From Bacillota bacterium (GTDB taxonomy: Bacteria; Bacillota_I; Bacilli_A; RF39; UBA660): a DNA stretch of 38,408 nucleotides. The notes under the pieces are model-generated. The model was not told the origin of the DNA. It worked only from the letters and a program-made list of their open reading frames with translations, and ran no database searches. The stretch's first letter is position 1, and the number at the start of each line of letters is the position of its first letter. Below are positions 20,616 to 33,827 of this stretch, piece after piece. The stretch spans positions 1-38,408 of the forward strand of contig QAMK01000014.1 in assembly GCA_003149915.1 (NCBI GenBank), in the 5' to 3' direction. The position numbers and the translations under genes are program-made.

Positions 20616-22283
20616 CTACTCTCCTAATATCTCATGTCGGTCGGTAAACGTCGTATGTAATAATTCTTCTGATGTCTCACTCAGTGGAGCACCCAAAAAT
20701 TCATCATATAGACGTTTGATATCTGGGTTTTGATAAGACGCACGTTTCGTATCTTTCACATCCGCTTCATAAAGTCCAGTAATACGACTCTGTTTTGCCT
20801 TATCAGCATCCGCTAAATTGATCAATGGTTGACCACCACCGCCAATACAGCCACCATGACAGTTCATTACTTCGATAAAATCATACTGTAACGTTCCCTT
20901 TTCCCGTAATTCATCCAAATATGGTTTTAAATTCGTAAGACCATGAACGACCAATACATTCAATTTTATCTTACCCATATCGACGGTTGCTTCTTTTACG
21001 AAGTTCATACCACGAACAGGATTAAATCCCAAGAAACGCAAATCCGGATCTTTTCCATTTAAGAAGTAATAAGCTGTCCGCAAAGCAGACTCCATCACAC
21101 CACCAGTGTTACCGAAAATTAAGCCGCCACCACTGCCTTGTCCTTGCATAGAATCGAACTCACTACTTTGAATCGTCTTAAAGTCGACTCCTTTTTCCCG
21201 TAGCATAATACCAAGTTCAGATGTTGTCAAGACATAATCGGTATCTCGCATCTCATCATCATGCCAGAACTTAGCGGAAGCATTCATCTCTGGCCGGCGA
21301 ATCTCCGCTTTCTTAGCTGTACAAGGCGTAATCGAAACGGTAACAATCTTCTTTGGATCAAGTCCCATTTTCTTCGCATAATACGTCTTGATAATAGCCG
21401 CCTGCATCGAAATTGGACTTTTACAAGAAGAAAGATGATCTTTCAAATCCGGATAATAAATTTCCATATATTTTACCCAGGCTGGACAGCATGAAGTGAA
21501 CATCGGCATTTTTTCTTTTTGATTGATGCGACGAATCAATTCAGACGCTTCTTCCATAATCGTCAAATCGGCTCCGAACGTAACATCTAAAACGTAGTCA
21601 AACCCTAAACTACGAAGTGCTGCCACCATCTTTCCTTCTACGAAAGTACCAGCTGGCATACCGAATTCTTCTCCTAATGCGACGCGAACAGCCGGTGCCG
21701 TAAAGGCAATGACAACTTTTTCTGGATCATCAATAAGTTTAAAAACTTTCTGATAATTATATTTGGGAACCAATGCTCCAACCGGACAATTTAAAATACA
21801 TTGACCACACTCGATACAGACAGGAGCCAAGGATTTTGCACCATCATAATGGATTCCAACAATGTTCTCACAAGTTGTTTTACACTTTCCACAATTCGTA
21901 CATTTATCCAAAATCATTGCGATTCCCATATTGTTTGGATCGACATCGATTTTTCGATTGACAGTTTCGTATTTCATCTCGGCTTCCACCATAATTTCTT
22001 CATAAGGAACCGCTTCAAACATATCCTTTGGTACCCCACAAAGTGGACATTTCCAATCATCTGGGAGTGATTCAAATGGAACAGCCTCTTTAGCATCATC
22101 GTAAATATATCCACACACTTTACAACGATATCTCTTTTTACGAACAACATAAGTATCATCAGTTGGATTAACCATTACAGGTTCTAACATACTCTTTGGT
22201 GCTCCACAAGATGGACAAATCTCCACCTCCCGAACATCATCTTGAACAAATGTCTTTCCACAAATTTTACACTGATATTTCAT
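20616..22283 (-). CDS. [FeFe] hydrogenase fused to two N-terminal rubredoxin-type domains
   Basis: A 555-residue protein. Residues 1-35 are a short rubredoxin-like knuckle (C5xxC8, C23xxC26). About 52-90 is a full rubredoxin ([12 protein letters not shown], then [11 protein letters not shown]). A 2[4Fe-4S] ferredoxin domain follows ([23 protein letters not shown]). The H-cluster domain has TSCCPAW (L1), TPCTAKKAE (L2, Thr where Met is usual) and [14 protein letters not shown] (L3). A small-subunit-like tail ends it. All cluster Cys are present. The fusion gives a built-in path from the H-cluster to rubredoxin acceptors. The start overlaps the end of perR by 17 bp with AAGGAGG upstream, so the two are coupled. 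Maturases HydEFG are not in the window. Confidence 0.93.
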
Positions 22284-23440: not shown

Positions 23441-24172
23441 ATGGATGCAATCGAACAACTACATGAAATGATTGAAAAAAGTAAAAAGATCGTCTTCTTC
23501 GGAGGGGCCGGAGTATCTACTGAAAGTGGTATCAAAGATTTTCGTAGTGAAGACGGTCTCTACTCTGAAAAATACCCGTATCCACCAGAATACATGCTAA
23601 GCATTGACTTATTTCAAAAAGACCCAAAAACATTCTTTGATTTTTACAAAGAGAAATTGAATTGTCTAAATGCCAAACCGAATATCACACATAAGTATTT
23701 AAAAAAATTAGAAGACCGTGGCAAATTACAAGCTATCATTACGCAAAATATCGACGGTTTACATCAAAAAGCAGGAAGTAAAAATGTATATGAAATTCAC
23801 GGCACAATCTATCAAAATCACTGTACCAAATGTCATAAAAGTTATCCTCCCAAGAACGTATTTCATGCAAAAGGAATTCCAACTTGTGATTGCGGCGGAG
23901 TCATAAAGCCAGACGTGGTACTATATGGAGAGATGTTACCGGAGGCCTATTCCAAAGCGATTGCATCTCTAAAAGGTGCAGATATGCTCATAGTCGCCGG
24001 AACTTCCCTAACCGTAAGTCCAGCCAATCAACTAGTCATGATGTTTGAAGGAAAATATCTTGTGTTAATCAATCGTACTCCTACTCCGTACGATTCCATT
24101 ACGACATTAACCATTCATGAAAACTTAAAAGATGTATTTAATAAAATAGAAGAACTTGAAAATAGAAAATAA
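23441..24172 (+). CDS. cobB: Sirtuin, NAD-dependent protein deacylase
   Basis: A 243-residue Sir2-family protein of normal bacterial length. GAGVSTESGIKDFRS is the NAD-binding loop, TQNIDGLHQKAG the ribose/nicotinamide site, YEIHGT holds the catalytic His, CTKC and CDCG are the zinc ligands, KPDVVLYGE and GTSLTVSPA complete the Rossmann part. It removes acyl groups from lysines, consuming NAD. AAGGATGTG precedes the ATG. The sortase gene follows 16 bp after its stop on the same strand, so the two are probably co-transcribed, although no functional link is known. Confidence 0.95.
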   Translation: MDAIEQLHEMIEKSKKIVFFGGAGVSTESGIKDFRSEDGLYSEKYPYPPEYMLSIDLFQKDPKTFFDFYKEKLNCLNAKPNITHKYLKKLEDRGKLQAIITQNIDGLHQKAGSKNVYEIHGTIYQNHCTKCHKSYPPKNVFHAKGIPTCDCGGVIKPDVVLYGEMLPEAYSKAIASLKGADMLIVAGTSLTVSPANQLVMMFEGKYLVLINRTPTPYDSITTLTIHENLKDVFNKIEELENRK

Positions 24173-24188
24173 GAAAGTGAGGAAACAT

Positions 24189-25010
24189 ATGAAAAAAAGA
24201 AAAATAACACCCAAACATATAGTCGCCCTACTCTTACTAATCTTTTTTTTAACTGCATTCACGATTTCAATTATAAACATTACCAAATGGTTACTTGACT
24301 CCAACACCACCAATACTCAAATAGAAGAAATACAAAATATCGTCACCATTGAAGAAAGTAGTGATAACGAAAATACAGAAATCATTGAACAAGAACCGAA
24401 AGAAGAAAGTAATCCATACTGGGATTACATCAAAATGAATTTAATCAATGTAGATTTTCAAGAATTAAAATCAACTAACAATCAAACTGTTGGTTGGATA
24501 CAAGTAAACGGAACCAATATTAATTATCCATTCGTACAAGCAAACGACAATAAATATTATTTAACACACTCTTTTGATAAAAGTCACAATACATCTGGTT
24601 GGGTATTCCTAGATTACCGAAACAATATACAAACACTAGACAAAAATACAATTTTATATGCTCATGGCAGAATAGATAAAACAATGTTTGGAACTTTAAA
24701 AAACATTTTAAATAATGATTGGCTCACCAATACAGACAACTATATAATCAAATTATCAACAGAATACGAAAATAGCCTATGGCAAATCTTTAGTGCCTAT
24801 CACATTCCAACAACAAGCGATTACTTACAAATTAATTTTGGAAATAATGAAGATTTTAAAAATTTTGCAAACATGTTAACAGAACGTAGTCAATATAATT
24901 TCAATACCACAGTAAATGAAAATGATCATATCTTAACATTATCTACTTGCTACAATAGTAGTGAAAAAATGGTCATCCACGCAAAACTAATCAAAAAAGA
25001 AACAAGGTAA
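24189..25010 (+). CDS. srtB: Class B sortase
   Basis: About 273 residues. A basic N-terminus and one membrane span (about 10-32) are followed by an acidic linker, then the sortase barrel: NQTVGWIQVNGTNINYPFVQ, YYLTHSF, ILYAHG with catalytic His159, and LTLSTCYN with catalytic Cys254. By alignment of the last strand (KMVIHAKL with the RIVVVAKI of staphylococcal SrtB), the catalytic Arg position is Lys260. The ATG at 24189 has GTGAGG upstream; an earlier ATG (24156) lies inside cobB. The enzyme should link surface proteins to peptidoglycan, and the convergent gene at 25017-26711 encodes a protein with an NPKTYD signal, its likely substrate. Confidence 0.93.
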   Translation: MKKRKITPKHIVALLLLIFFLTAFTISIINITKWLLDSNTTNTQIEEIQNIVTIEESSDNENTEIIEQEPKEESNPYWDYIKMNLINVDFQELKSTNNQTVGWIQVNGTNINYPFVQANDNKYYLTHSFDKSHNTSGWVFLDYRNNIQTLDKNTILYAHGRIDKTMFGTLKNILNNDWLTNTDNYIIKLSTEYENSLWQIFSAYHIPTTSDYLQINFGNNEDFKNFANMLTERSQYNFNTTVNENDHILTLSTCYNSSEKMVIHAKLIKKETR

Positions 25011-25035
25011 TTTGAATTATCTTGTTTCTTTTTTT
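24993..25035. terminator. Shared bidirectional terminator of sortase and ubiquitin-domain genes
   Basis: A 14-bp perfect stem (24993-25006 with 25021-25034) is extended by one wobble and four more pairs to a TTGA loop, with A/T runs on both flanks. The last five codons of both convergent genes lie in the arms, so both proteins end in KKETR. Confidence 0.9.
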
Positions 25036-26711
25036 AAATAAACACTCGTACCAATTAATCCAACAACCGATACCAATCCTAGTCCAATATAAAATAAAAT
25101 GCTATCATAAGTTTTTGGATTATCGATTGTATTTTCTACTTTCTCAGAAGGGATACCATCCTCTTGTTTCTCAATTATAAATGTCGTTGTGGCACTAGCT
25201 CCAGTCGTATACGTCACAGTCAATTCGTAAATTCCTTCTTCCAAAGCTTTCAAATACTCATTTTTTAATGTTAAAACCGTACTGCCTTCTGTAATCATGT
25301 AATTACTAGAATCTAATTCCTTACCATTTACAAAAACTTGATTCACTAAATCGAATTCCCCATCTAAAATAAACACCAAATCAGTATCTTGATACGTAGC
25401 ATTTTCTCCTACGGTAAACTGATATGGAATTGCTTTAAACGTTGCCACGATAGTTGCCTTGCCATCTTTTGGTAAAGAAAATGTATAATCGCCAACTTCA
25501 ATATTACCATTAGAACCCGAAACCGTAAGCACGTCTAATTCATAACCTTTATCAGGAATTATCGTTATTGTCACTAATCCATTGTCATCTACTGCATGTG
25601 TAATATTACCATGAGTTGTGTTTTCTACTGTAATCTTTGAAATCTGATATGGATTTTCACGAGTTCCATTACCTAGCAATTGTATGCCATCATAATCTAT
25701 CCCTACATTTACAACAGGTCTAACATCAAGTTTCCAATCTGTCATTACATAACTCAAATGATTGCCAACATACGAAATATAAGCATAATCATGAGTAGAA
25801 TCACCATCAGAATCGGTAGTGGCAAAAGGATTGATTAACCAAAAATCATTTCCTTGATTCATTGTAACTAACCAATTAGTATCTCCGCAAACATCCATAT
25901 TATGAAACTCATCCGTTACAGTTCCACATTGCTCTATATTGCTGTTTGCTCTGATATAATCACTAACTGTTGGTAATCCAACTCGATTATGAATTTGGAT
26001 ATTTGACTCTTGTGATAATAAATCTGATATAGTACCACTTTGTAATAATCGATAACTAATCGTCCCAACATTATAAGAAGACTCTAATATTAACTCTTTT
26101 GAAAAAGAATTCAACCCACTATAATATTCGTCGTTCAAATCAATCAATAAAGGTGCGTTAGAAAAATCTATATCATTTTTGTATTCCCAATTTTCTGAAA
26201 AAGCTTTCTTTTCTTCTAACGGTGTCTCTTTTATAAGCTTCAAACTATCATTCTCAATAGAAATAATTCGCCATAACTCATCATTAAACATAATATAATT
26301 AGCCGGATCAACACCTTTATAAGTATACTTACCATCCTCATATTCATCTACATATAATCCGTCCCCAGTTATTACAAGTGGAATTTGTTTCTTTCCAATC
26401 GACATAAAACTAGATTTCAATGTCAAGTGTAAAGTACTATCTTTACCAACACTATAGTCTTGTAAAGTGTTCTCATCTATCAACTCTTTTCCAGCAAAAA
26501 TAAGAATTTGCTCAGAAGAATCAATTCCTTCCTTCTCCTCAATTTTATCTTTGACATCCACAATTCGATCAGTCGGTTCTACTTCCAAAGTAATATGCTT
26601 TCCAGTTAATGTTTTCACAAATATTTGCATGGCATCAACACGCATAGGCACAACTACAAAAATTGCTAATAATACAACCCAAACCCATCTTACTACACGT
26701 TTTGTTTTCAT
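25017..26711 (-). CDS. Secreted, sortase-anchored surface protein with an N-terminal ubiquitin domain
   Basis: A 564-residue protein. Residues 1-27 are a signal peptide ending VDA. Residues 28-103 (26630-26403) align without gaps to ubiquitin, beginning [11 protein letters not shown]; by eye 48 of 76 match human ubiquitin. Lys6, 11, 27, 29, 33, 48 and 63, Leu8, Ile44 and His68 are kept. Arg42 is Ile, Val70 is Thr, and the final R-G-G is absent. About 104-355 is a surface-type domain ([24 protein letters not shown]). Two beta repeats follow (about 360-440 and 440-515). The tail has NPKTYD (531-536), a membrane span and KKETR. Cleavage after VDA would expose ubiquitin Met1. GAGGTG precedes the ATG. 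Lacking Gly-Gly, it cannot be conjugated in the normal way; it may mimic ubiquitin for a host. Confidence 0.93.
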
Positions 26712-26985: not shown

Positions 26986-28869
26986 CTATGATTCCTCATA
27001 ATAATCACTTAGTAAGATATTGTTATTTGTTAAAATTTTATCTTGAACTTCTTTACTAACAGAAGAAACGTACGGCAATAAATCATCATTAACAACTTGA
27101 CCAGTATAATATAAATTGCCATCATACCAACTACCATCGGCAAAATAAACATAGTTATTGTGATTGTTTCCAAACACATCCGTTGCAATATAGTTGCGTG
27201 GATTGTATCCATCTAAACCAAATAAATTTGCAACCGTCGGCAAAATATCTGTCGTTGTCATAAGCATATCAAATGTTTGGGACTCAATATCATTACCCCA
27301 GATGACAAATGGCACGTGTTGTAACAAATTTCCATTGCTCTCATTCTTAACAGTAGCAATGTAAGAAGGATCTGGATAAGCATATGCATAATGGTCGGAG
27401 AATAATACCAAAATCGTATCATCTAAATGACCCTCTTGTTCTAAGCGTTCTAACAACTCTTTTAAAAACTCATCCGTATCACGGGCAAGATTACGAATAC
27501 AAGAAAGTGTAGAATCACCCGGAACCGCTAACCCGTACAAATCTGTCACACATTTGTCATTTGTACTATCATACGGCATATGAGCAGTATATGTAATGAT
27601 AAAGTTCATAAACGGTTCTGCATCAGGAATGATTAAATCTGCAACCGACTCATCTTTCAATAAATTACTATCATAAAAGAAATTCAAATTAGAATTCGGA
27701 AAATCATCTAACAAAGCAATATGACGATCATATCCAATTGCTAAATGAATGCTATTACGATTATAAAAATTCCCATGATTGACATGCAAAGCTTGCGTCT
27801 GATACCCATTATTGTGAAACAAACTAGGAAGCGAATAAGGATATGCATTACGGTCAAAATTATAAGCAGCTTGCCCATTTTCAATAGCAAAAAGTCCAGT
27901 ATTAGCAGCAAATTCACTATTAAACGTCTGCCCGCCACCAAATGCTGGCGAGTATCTTTCTGTAAAGTTCCAACCAGTCTCTTGAAGATAAGATAGCGTC
28001 GGCATTATCTCTTCATTAACAAGCCAAGAATCGATACTTTCCATCATAATCAAAATTAAGTTTTTATCTTTAAAAATACCCGTATACTCATTAGTAGACA
28101 AATCTAATGTTTCATTTCTAGTTGTAAAGTAAGACTCTACTTCTTCTCGCAACGTACTTCTGTCTTCAAGATATTCCTGTTCAATATATACGACAACACT
28201 ACGAAAAGTCATTTCATAAAGGCCTGCTACTTCCATATTTTTTGATGGATTGTTAAAATCCAAATAAACGTTGTAAACATTGTTCCAACGATCCCAAGAA
28301 TTAGGATCAGACGGTTCTCCCAAACGTTCAAAAGCAAGACCACGAAATAAAACAAAACCAGATAATAAACAAATACCTAACCGAGTATAATACGAATTTT
28401 TTCGTTTACAAACTGGTTCAGTAGAAAAAAGAAAACAGCCAAAAATACAGGAAACTATGGACAAAAACAATAAACTCACCATATAAGGTGTAATCCATCG
28501 AAAAGACGAAAGAAAATATCCCGCCCCTTCTCCTGTCAAGAACAAATCATAAACACTGAAAAATCTTCCCAAAATACTTTGATGAAGCATCTGTGCTAAC
28601 ACTAAAACTTGAAACAAACCAATTAAAATTCCATACGCAATGACTCGTCTCTTTTTAGGTAATAACATTACAAAAAAGAAAAAAAGAAAAATCCAACTTA
28701 CACTAAAAAAGAAAGGGGAAGCGTGCGTCCATCCATAAAAACCAGTATATTGATTAGAAAAATAGCGAATTCCCAAATCTAAACTCATAAATGAAAAAAA
28801 GAAAAATCCAAAAAGGAATAAATATGCAAAACAAGGATATTGCCATACTTTATTAAAAAACTTCTTCAT
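26986..28869 (-). CDS. LtaS-like phosphoglycerol transferase (lipoteichoic-acid-synthase family)
   Basis: A 627-residue protein. Five N-terminal membrane spans (to about residue 165) are followed by an extracellular sulfatase-fold domain. LILIMMESIDSW holds the metal Glu, GGGQTFNSEFAANTG the Thr nucleophile, HVNHGNFYNR a substrate patch, and LVLFSDHYAYAY the metal Asp-His pair. These match LtaS, which builds polyglycerol-phosphate from phosphatidylglycerol. The length is close to that of typical LtaS (about 650). Whether it is the main synthase or a primase-like or modifying relative cannot be told. It follows the 423-residue membrane-anchored protein gene, behind a terminator. AAGGTG precedes the ATG. 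Confidence 0.88.
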   Translation of the reverse strand: MKKFFNKVWQYPCFAYLFLFGFFFFSFMSLDLGIRYFSNQYTGFYGWTHASPFFFSVSWIFLFFFFVMLLPKKRRVIAYGILIGLFQVLVLAQMLHQSILGRFFSVYDLFLTGEGAGYFLSSFRWITPYMVSLLFLSIVSCIFGCFLFSTEPVCKRKNSYYTRLGICLLSGFVLFRGLAFERLGEPSDPNSWDRWNNVYNVYLDFNNPSKNMEVAGLYEMTFRSVVVYIEQEYLEDRSTLREEVESYFTTRNETLDLSTNEYTGIFKDKNLILIMMESIDSWLVNEEIMPTLSYLQETGWNFTERYSPAFGGGQTFNSEFAANTGLFAIENGQAAYNFDRNAYPYSLPSLFHNNGYQTQALHVNHGNFYNRNSIHLAIGYDRHIALLDDFPNSNLNFFYDSNLLKDESVADLIIPDAEPFMNFIITYTAHMPYDSTNDKCVTDLYGLAVPGDSTLSCIRNLARDTDEFLKELLERLEQEGHLDDTILVLFSDHYAYAYPDPSYIATVKNESNGNLLQHVPFVIWGNDIESQTFDMLMTTTDILPTVANLFGLDGYNPRNYIATDVFGNNHNNYVYFADGSWYDGNLYYTGQVVNDDLLPYVSSVSKEVQDKILTNNNILLSDYYEES

Positions 28870-32530: not shown

Positions 32531-32549
32531 ATAAATAATGAGGTACAAT

Positions 32550-33827
32550 ATGGAGAAAGAGAAAAAAAAGAAAGATAACAACCCGCAACAAGAGTCCAAA
32601 AAGAAAAAAATTATTATATTCACACTACTTATCATTTTTATAACTCTCCTCATCTTTTGGATCAGTTGGCGTAAAAAACTTTTAAAAATCACTCTCGTTG
32701 GAAATAATGAAATTATCCTAGAAGTGAATTCTTCCTATCAAGAAGGAAGTGCCAAAGCAACTTACTTAACGGATGATATTTCGTCTAAAATCACGATGAA
32801 TCACAATGTCGATGTAACAAAATTAGGAACTTATTATGAAACGTATCAAATTACCTATCGAGGAATTCAGAAAGAGATTAAACGCACCATTATTGTTCAA
32901 GACACAACTGCACCAGAATTGCTACTAAATGGAGAAGAAGAAATGACCATCTTTGTAAACGAAGAATGGCAAGATCCAGGTGCTACCGCAACTGATAACT
33001 ACGATGGCAACCTTTCTAATAACATCGAAACAAAAAATAACATTGATATCACCCAACCTGGAACTTATCAAATCAACTACACAGTAAAGGATTCATCAGG
33101 AAATACAACGGCCAAAACACGAACAATCATCTGTAAAGAAAGACCAATCATCGATGATCAACAAATCGCCGTATTGAATTACCATTTTTTCTACGACCAA
33201 AAAAATGAATCTTGTAATGAATCGATCTGTCTAGATATCGAAAAATTTAAAGAACAATTAGATTATTTAAAAGAAAACAATTATAAAACATTAACTATGC
33301 AAGAATTTAGAGATTGGATGTACGGAAAAATCGATATTCCAGAACGTTCTGTATTAATTACAATAGATGACGGTGCCATGGGAACGGGAGCTCACAATGG
33401 AAATAAATTAATTCCAATTTTGGAAGAATACGAAATGCACGCTACGCTATTTTTAATTTCCGGCTGGTGGAATGTAGAAAACTATCAATCCCCTTACTTA
33501 GATATCGAATCTCATACCCATGACATGCATACAAAAATCTCCTACGGTAGCGAGATAGGATCCAAACTTCTATATTCTAAAGAAGAGAACGTTCTACAAG
33601 ACTTAACTTTATCTATCCAAACCATCGGTTCTAAAACTGCCTTCTGCTTTCCTTTTTACGAATCCAGTAAAACGGCAATCGAACAACTAAAAAAAGTCGG
33701 CTTTGAACTTGCCTTCGTTGGTGGAAACCGAAAAGTAAGTCGCAAAACCGACAAATATCAAATTCCAAGATATATCATTTATAAAAATACATCTTTGCAA
33801 TCATTTATCAACATGGTTTCAAATTAA
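32550..33827 (+). CDS. Membrane-anchored polysaccharide deacetylase with two Ig-like (DUF5011) domains
   Basis: About 425 residues. A Lys-rich cytoplasmic start and one membrane span (about 20-38) are followed by two beta domains of the DUF5011/HYR type; the second has TTAPELLLNGEEEMTIFVN, DNYDGNLSNNI and GTYQINYTVKDSSGN. The NodB-type carbohydrate esterase domain then follows: VLITIDDG (catalytic and metal Asp), ESHTHDMHTK (metal His residues) and FCFPFYES. It should remove N-acetyl (or similar) groups from peptidoglycan or a surface glycan. The ATG at 32550 follows GAGG; an ATG at 32538 lacks spacing. Its stop shares the bases TTAA with the stop of the convergent gene. Confidence 0.87.
   Translation: MEKEKKKKDNNPQQESKKKKIIIFTLLIIFITLLIFWISWRKKLLKITLVGNNEIILEVNSSYQEGSAKATYLTDDISSKITMNHNVDVTKLGTYYETYQITYRGIQKEIKRTIIVQDTTAPELLLNGEEEMTIFVNEEWQDPGATATDNYDGNLSNNIETKNNIDITQPGTYQINYTVKDSSGNTTAKTRTIICKERPIIDDQQIAVLNYHFFYDQKNESCNESICLDIEKFKEQLDYLKENNYKTLTMQEFRDWMYGKIDIPERSVLITIDDGAMGTGAHNGNKLIPILEEYEMHATLFLISGWWNVENYQSPYLDIESHTHDMHTKISYGSEIGSKLLYSKEENVLQDLTLSIQTIGSKTAFCFPFYESSKTAIEQLKKVGFELAFVGGNRKVSRKTDKYQIPRYIIYKNTSLQSFINMVSN

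Follow-up and report, generated by a model that had tools for sequence, protein, structure and literature searches.

A eukaryotic-type ubiquitin as the head of a predicted wall-anchored surface protein in a relative of uncultured Bacilli

Animal and plant cells use ubiquitin to tag proteins, and it is regarded as a eukaryotic signature. In a contig from a Bacillota bacterium (QAMK01000014.1 of assembly GCA_003149915.1; the whole stretch of 38,408 nucleotides is called the window here) an open reading frame, assigned by profile search (25017..26711, minus strand, as are all parts of this gene given below), encodes a surface protein of 564 amino acids that begins, directly behind a predicted signal peptide, with a ubiquitin domain. 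The carrier organism is related to uncultured Bacilli. Sequence comparison supports this head as ubiquitin proper rather than a general beta-grasp domain, and we favour a reading in which it is the non-conjugatable binding head of a predicted wall-anchored protein, to which we give a probability of roughly 0.45.

The domain covers residues 28-103 (26403..26630, with homology up to residue 99) and was assigned by profile, alignment and structure comparison. Aligned without gaps to human ubiquitin it is identical at 48 of 76 positions, all 48 lying within the first 72. The seven lysines K6, K11, K27, K29, K33, K48 and K63 are kept together with L8, I44 and H68, whereas R42 is exchanged for I and V70 for T, SSFM replaces LRGG at positions 73-76 and the chain runs on; the alignment confirms what a preliminary description had read of this domain from the letters alone, including the replaced R-G-G tail. 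Compared with eukaryotic ubiquitin, R42, R72, R74, G75 and G76 are lost. The protein does not possess the exposed C-terminal Arg-Gly-Gly of a conjugatable ubiquitin, and because the chain continues past the ubiquitin domain conjugation by E1 would be unlikely. The profiles for E2 (PF00179) and deubiquitinase (PF00443) each matched in 0 of 11 carrier genomes and were equally silent in 14 control genomes. The profile search proposed for the domain gave a match to Pfam ubiquitin (PF00240) with 78.5 bits (E 3.2e-22, cut-off 25.4). The domain shows the ubiquitin beta-grasp fold, and in a search of solved structures the 60 best matches listed were all ubiquitins or engineered ubiquitin variants, the identity in the structure alignment being 66% to ubiquitin, 49% to NEDD8 and 46% to BfUbb, the secreted ubiquitin of Bacteroides fragilis. 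In a tree of 45 rows and 76 columns, whose bootstrap had not settled and whose six ubiquitin-like references were entered by hand, the window falls among the ubiquitins within a Bacillota-only clade of 13 rows (support 100/99). NEDD8 and Rad23 lie outside the ubiquitins, with a fork support of only 85/75 and 90/78, and UBL4A, Parkin and FUBI sit on long branches inside the same open fork, a placement we do not trust. Profile score, tree and structure alignment together rule out a general beta-grasp protein, which had been named as one outcome that would overturn the ubiquitin assignment.

Export and anchoring of the protein are predicted from its two ends. By eye, the N-terminus reads MKTKR, a hydrophobic stretch and V-D-A, with Met1 of ubiquitin directly after it (signal peptide at residues 1-27, 26631..26711); all signal peptides given here are such predictions. 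In 26 of 27 rows the residue just ahead of ubiquitin is an alanine; only the giant-virus-like L043 departs from this. At the other end the sorting motif NPKTYD (residues 531-536, 25104..25121) is followed by a transmembrane segment and a basic end (residues 537-564, 25020..25103) with a predicted helix at 535-562 and a terminal KKETR, which together make up the NPXT-type motif, span and basic C-terminal tail of a class B sortase substrate. Class B sortases typically accept NPXTG or NPQTN, according to the available part of PMC11987632. The adjoining gene (24156..25010, plus strand), arranged tail-to-tail, encodes a sortase that matches the TIGR03064 equivalog with 169.3 bits (cut-off 153.75) and is of class B also by its solved SrtB relatives. 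A hairpin of 19 pairs (24993..25034) lies across the 3' ends of both genes, can fold on both strands and is likely a shared two-way terminator. From the adjacency of the genes we predict that the neighbouring sortase would cleave the protein and attach it to the wall. The signal peptide, the sorting tail and the wall display put forward in the preliminary description are upheld as predictions.

Proteins of the same architecture had been suggested as a check and were found in the separate entries P0002, P0003 and P0007. A genome scan gave one further locus (L001) in a metagenome-assembled genome (MAG) of uncultured Bacilli. Its protein shares 71% identity across residues 1-561, and its sortase is placed tail-to-tail as in the window, with the same hairpin and different outer neighbour genes. 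Of 1751 protein matches the best 120 include at least 11 bacterial stalk relatives, eight of them with a ubiquitin head, while P0027 and P0078 carry the stalk type of the window without it and P0013 is a fragment lacking the N-terminus. The remaining matches among these 120 are listed as ubiquitins, and nine of the unnamed ones, read individually, were all ubiquitin repeats. P0027 and P0078 have the same longest contig of 18,498 bases and are perhaps neighbours. PF00240 was above cut-off in 5 of 147 relatives of the genome of L001, in 11 of 385 genomes from the same order (or 14 when E 1e-3 is the limit), in 4 of 395 genomes of its class, with the same four among 392 of the phylum, and, for the genomes G504 and G734, in 4 of 98 relatives each (the same four). 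This amounts to 15 distinct carrier genomes over the surveys, with 0 of 14 control genomes in every one of them.

The surroundings were read for 16 intact Bacillota genes, window included. A class B sortase adjoins six of them, tail-to-tail in the window, L001 and L021 and head-to-head in L020, L023 and L024, and lies two genes away in L029. The C-terminal motif NP[KQN]TxD is present in 10 of the 16 proteins and a similar motif in two more, with neither in the other four. The stalks vary, comprising DUF6273 (L025), Listeria-Bacteroides repeats (L020, L022, L027, L028, L029), a chitobiase/Fn3-type stalk (L035) and others. One locus (L030 in G259) is the decayed remnant of a ubiquitin-headed gene; judged by similar neighbours, it stands at the place where G063 has the intact L022. 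A sortase devoted to ubiquitin cargo alone is not supported, as homologues occur in 76 of 147 relatives and L049, L055 and L057 pair the sortase with other NPxT proteins.

Ubiquitin heads are also found beyond the Bacilli. The plasmid pRUMAL01 of the cultured Ruminococcus albus 7 (R. albus 7) encodes a protein annotated as 'ubiquitin family protein' (WP_013483628.1) whose ubiquitin agrees with the human one at 65 of 72 positions; it has no NPxT sorting tail, and its gene lies within a run of small secreted proteins. Those small proteins around the ubiquitin-headed gene (L036:3953-9761) share a motif like TYTVTIPASV; by eye, a similar one stands behind ubiquitin in L041 and a weaker one in L034. 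In a very large cadherin/immunoglobulin-like (Ig-like) protein encoded on a Pseudoalteromonas plasmid, the first domain is a diverged ubiquitin. On IMG/VR contigs ubiquitin is joined to an IPTL-CTERM sorting tail (L045-L047; L045:2322-2768 with 28.4 bits, cut-off 20.8) or to an autotransporter beta-domain (L066, 63.4, cut-off 26), the barrel match of L044 being slightly under the cut-off (24.6 vs 26). Another IMG/VR locus, L067, is a candidate for the same group of heads. On a further IMG/VR contig (L042:4811-5137) a predicted signal peptide precedes a whole ubiquitin with RLRGG intact and 68 of 72 positions as in human, which from its sequence might be a secreted bacterial-type ubiquitin that is still conjugatable. 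The preliminary description needs amending here: the window protein belongs to a clade of bacterial ubiquitins and to a recurrent architecture, the latter including one cultured species, R. albus 7.

To see what selection has kept we counted ten of the 13 clade rows, omitting P0003 (99% identical to the window), P0053 and L029, which sits on a long branch; L028, L035, L029 and L037 were aligned and left uncounted. Invariant in all ten are 34 of 72 positions, among them residues 1-8, 10, 12, 13, 16-21, 63 and 64. The opening strand, the greater part of the hairpin and 16-21 are frozen, and His12, Thr20 and Asp64 are fixed although they differ from the human letter. With residue classes that were assigned and not computed, the human letter is kept in 133 of 140 cases in the buried core, in 67 of 70 for the lysines, in 140 of 250 for other exposed residues and in 1 of 40 for the tail 73-76. 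Gln49, Arg54, Ser57, Asn60 and Arg72 are lost in 10 of 10 rows and Arg42 in eight, and position 70 is variable (T, L, A, V, F). The conservation of the lysines (hypergeometric 0.307) may be structural, and we do not press it as a sign of chain building.

We propose that the ubiquitin-headed protein would be exported via its predicted signal peptide and then anchored in the cell wall by the neighbouring class B sortase, which would leave the ubiquitin outermost, at the free end of a long stalk. A head without a conjugating tail would there bind something, and we favour as partner a eukaryotic protein, from host or protist cells that the bacterium encounters, with contact presumably made through the conserved beta1-beta2 face (Met1, Phe4, His12, Lys63, Asp64). 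A binding head is likely rather than a tag, because in other bacteria this head sits on surface proteins of different kinds: it recurs on unrelated anchors (IPTL-CTERM, autotransporter), and the same stalk occurs also without it. As a wider but tentative generalisation, bacteria of several phyla may repeatedly have made ubiquitin an exchangeable outermost head on sortase B, IPTL-CTERM and autotransporter anchors, docking on eukaryotic ubiquitin-binding proteins.

Several observations weigh against a wall-anchored binding head. Around nine of the 16 intact genes the stretch read, 6.5 to 10.5 kb long, contains no homologue of the window's sortase, L034 and L041 are without a sorting tail, and the sortase homologue is present in 76 of 147 relatives while only five have ubiquitin. 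In the window's sortase a lysine stands at the place expected for the catalytic arginine, with His and Cys present; 16 of the 17 proteins read from this sortase group share the exchange (window, L001, L020, L021, L023, L024, L029, L048-L057, with Arg in L056), which is, judged from the aligned letters, a trait of the group. The beta1-beta2 face was picked after viewing the data, and its hypergeometric value of 0.001 is uncorrected; for the textbook F4 patch by itself the value is 0.088, for the Ile44 patch 0.436. A second Bacillota group keeps Phe4 in only two of six members, with Tyr in three and Lys in one. Finally, the dN/dS of the ubiquitin domain versus L001 (0.10, with 0.17 and 0.26 for two stalk parts), which we count in favour of the binding head, is only rough, because its dS of 1.44 is near saturation, and it comes from one gene pair.

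An alternative is that ubiquitin is an inert and very stable cap or spacer that shields the N-terminus of the stalk and has no partner. That strongly diverged heads stay in the same place (L027, L028, L029), that the buried core ranks with the best-conserved residues, that lysine retention may be structural and that stalks without a head exist would all suit such a cap. We nevertheless consider it unlikely, as the exposed beta1-beta2 residues are invariant in ten clade members, three of them with non-human letters, and as any stable domain would serve, yet ubiquitin recurs on several anchor types. Somewhat less likely still is a head that acts on other bacteria in the way of BfUbb, as a contact-dependent antagonist or a competitor-binding surface protein. 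BfUbb, which is also exported and lacks Gly-Gly, inhibits B. fragilis strains, as told in the available text of PMC5705921, and the patchy presence in 11 of 385 genomes suits a competition trait; a predicted wall-anchored protein would not diffuse, however, and with 66% identity to eukaryotic ubiquitin against 46% to BfUbb the activity of the latter should not be assumed for the window domain. It is improbable that the head, tethered to the cell, engages or blocks a receptor for extracellular ubiquitin and so calms host cells that it touches. In favour of this, Phe4 is invariant in the window's clade; against it, position 70 varies. CXCR4 has been proposed as that receptor, its activation by ubiquitin is disputed, and ubiquitin 1-74 reportedly binds but does not activate, in the portion of PMC10892293 available. 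An assembly chimera or eukaryotic contamination is hardly conceivable, being contradicted by the same fusion in separate entries and on the MAG contig L001, by the Bacillota-only clade and by an ordinary composition (guanine-plus-cytosine content of the gene 0.325, window 0.333).

That composition gives no sign of recent import. The position of the domain among eukaryotic-type ubiquitins points to horizontal acquisition, as had been proposed, and most likely an ancestor acquired ubiquitin from a eukaryote or a eukaryotic virus, after which it may have spread among Bacilli and been swapped between stalks. The hope of naming the donor by a tree was not borne out, 76 columns being too few to resolve it. 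Other Bacillota rows group separately (86/87), R. albus lies outside the supported clade of the window and non-Bacillota rows sit elsewhere or unplaced, so more than one acquisition is possible. P0002, P0004, L024 (a near-copy of L023), L030 (broken), L046 (as L045) and the loci of the second virus-contig scan were kept outside the tree. A phage-borne origin was rejected, the ubiquitin domain having no match among the 50,697 phage records searched with E 0.01 as the limit. The full window protein had no match in the virus-contig scan; the scans with ubiquitin alignments gave 6 and 20 loci, which overlap. In L059, L060, L064, L068 and L069-L077, all from the second of these scans, a signal peptide was looked for and none was found in front of ubiquitin, and these loci are therefore not relevant to the claim.

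Between head and sorting motif the window protein has a DUF6273-like stalk region (residues 105-357, 25641..26399), named after PF19789 in relatives, a profile that the window protein itself does not reach in the Pfam search. It is followed by an InlB B-repeat-like domain (residues 359-428, 25428..25637; PF18998, 28.0 bits, cut-off 23.6) and a CBM_X2-like region (residues 439-510, 25182..25397; PF03442, below cut-off with 22.7 vs 28.9). A viral DUF6273 protein is among the fold matches; the fold match lists were filled by ubiquitin, and the stalk domains were therefore barely tested by this comparison. Beside the ubiquitin-headed gene lies a membrane sulfatase-family protein (26986-28869, PF00884), which we take to be lipoteichoic acid (LTA)-synthase-like, and at 32538-33827 surface Ig-like domains (PF16403) are fused to a polysaccharide deacetylase (PF01522). 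An [FeFe]-hydrogenase with N-terminal rubredoxin-like domains (20616-22283) adjoins a rubrerythrin and a Fur-type regulator, and the bacterium is thus likely an anaerobe.

BfUbb is the one bacterial eukaryotic-type ubiquitin that we found described in detail, and it is free and secreted. The preliminary description had called a Met1-exposed ubiquitin at the wall undescribed. A start at Met1 after signal-peptide removal is already reported for BfUbb in the available text of PMC5705921, and for the anchored form we found no description among the papers listed on bacterial or anchored ubiquitin, in a search that reached few subscription papers; PMC4378268, in its available part, deals with secreted ubiquitin hydrolases and not with ubiquitin. 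Ubiquitin as the head of predicted anchored proteins, with an exposed face that is nearly frozen, points to use as a surface ligand without conjugation, and is relevant to signalling by extracellular ubiquitin as well as to antibodies against ubiquitin. It also offers a natural experiment, with ubiquitin evolving free from the conjugation machinery, and R. albus 7, one cultured carrier, provides a testable system. If true, there would be an unrecognised class of ubiquitin-headed ligands across several bacterial phyla.

Among known systems, BfUbb is a free ubiquitin that B. fragilis secretes and that inhibits strains of this species (PMC3352274 and PMC5705921, in their available parts; structure 8hm2). 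It has export (predicted for the window protein), the start at Met1 and the absence of Gly-Gly in common with the window protein, but is a free-standing protein of 76 residues from a Gram-negative bacterium without stalk, sorting motif or sortase, whereas the window gene encodes a fusion of 564 residues with a domain only 46% identical. WP_013483628.1 of R. albus 7 likewise has a predicted signal peptide, then ubiquitin and then a further domain, and differs in its missing NPxT tail, its run of small secreted proteins and its place outside the supported clade. Eukaryotic (poly)ubiquitin shares the family PF00240, the fold and all seven lysines, while the window domain is predicted to be exported, is fused to a stalk and has lost the five residues named above. 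The ubiquitin effector that the nematode Globodera rostochiensis secretes, as far as it is told in the available text of PMC5705921, also has a signal peptide before ubiquitin and is exported towards another organism; it is the free protein of a eukaryotic parasite with a short C-terminal extension. With class B sortase substrates the window protein shares NPKTYD, the membrane span, the basic tail and the adjacent class B sortase gene. The known substrates of two SrtB enzymes are haem-transport proteins, according to the available part of PMC11987632; in contrast, the window protein carries a ubiquitin head and has Tyr-Asp where G or N is expected.
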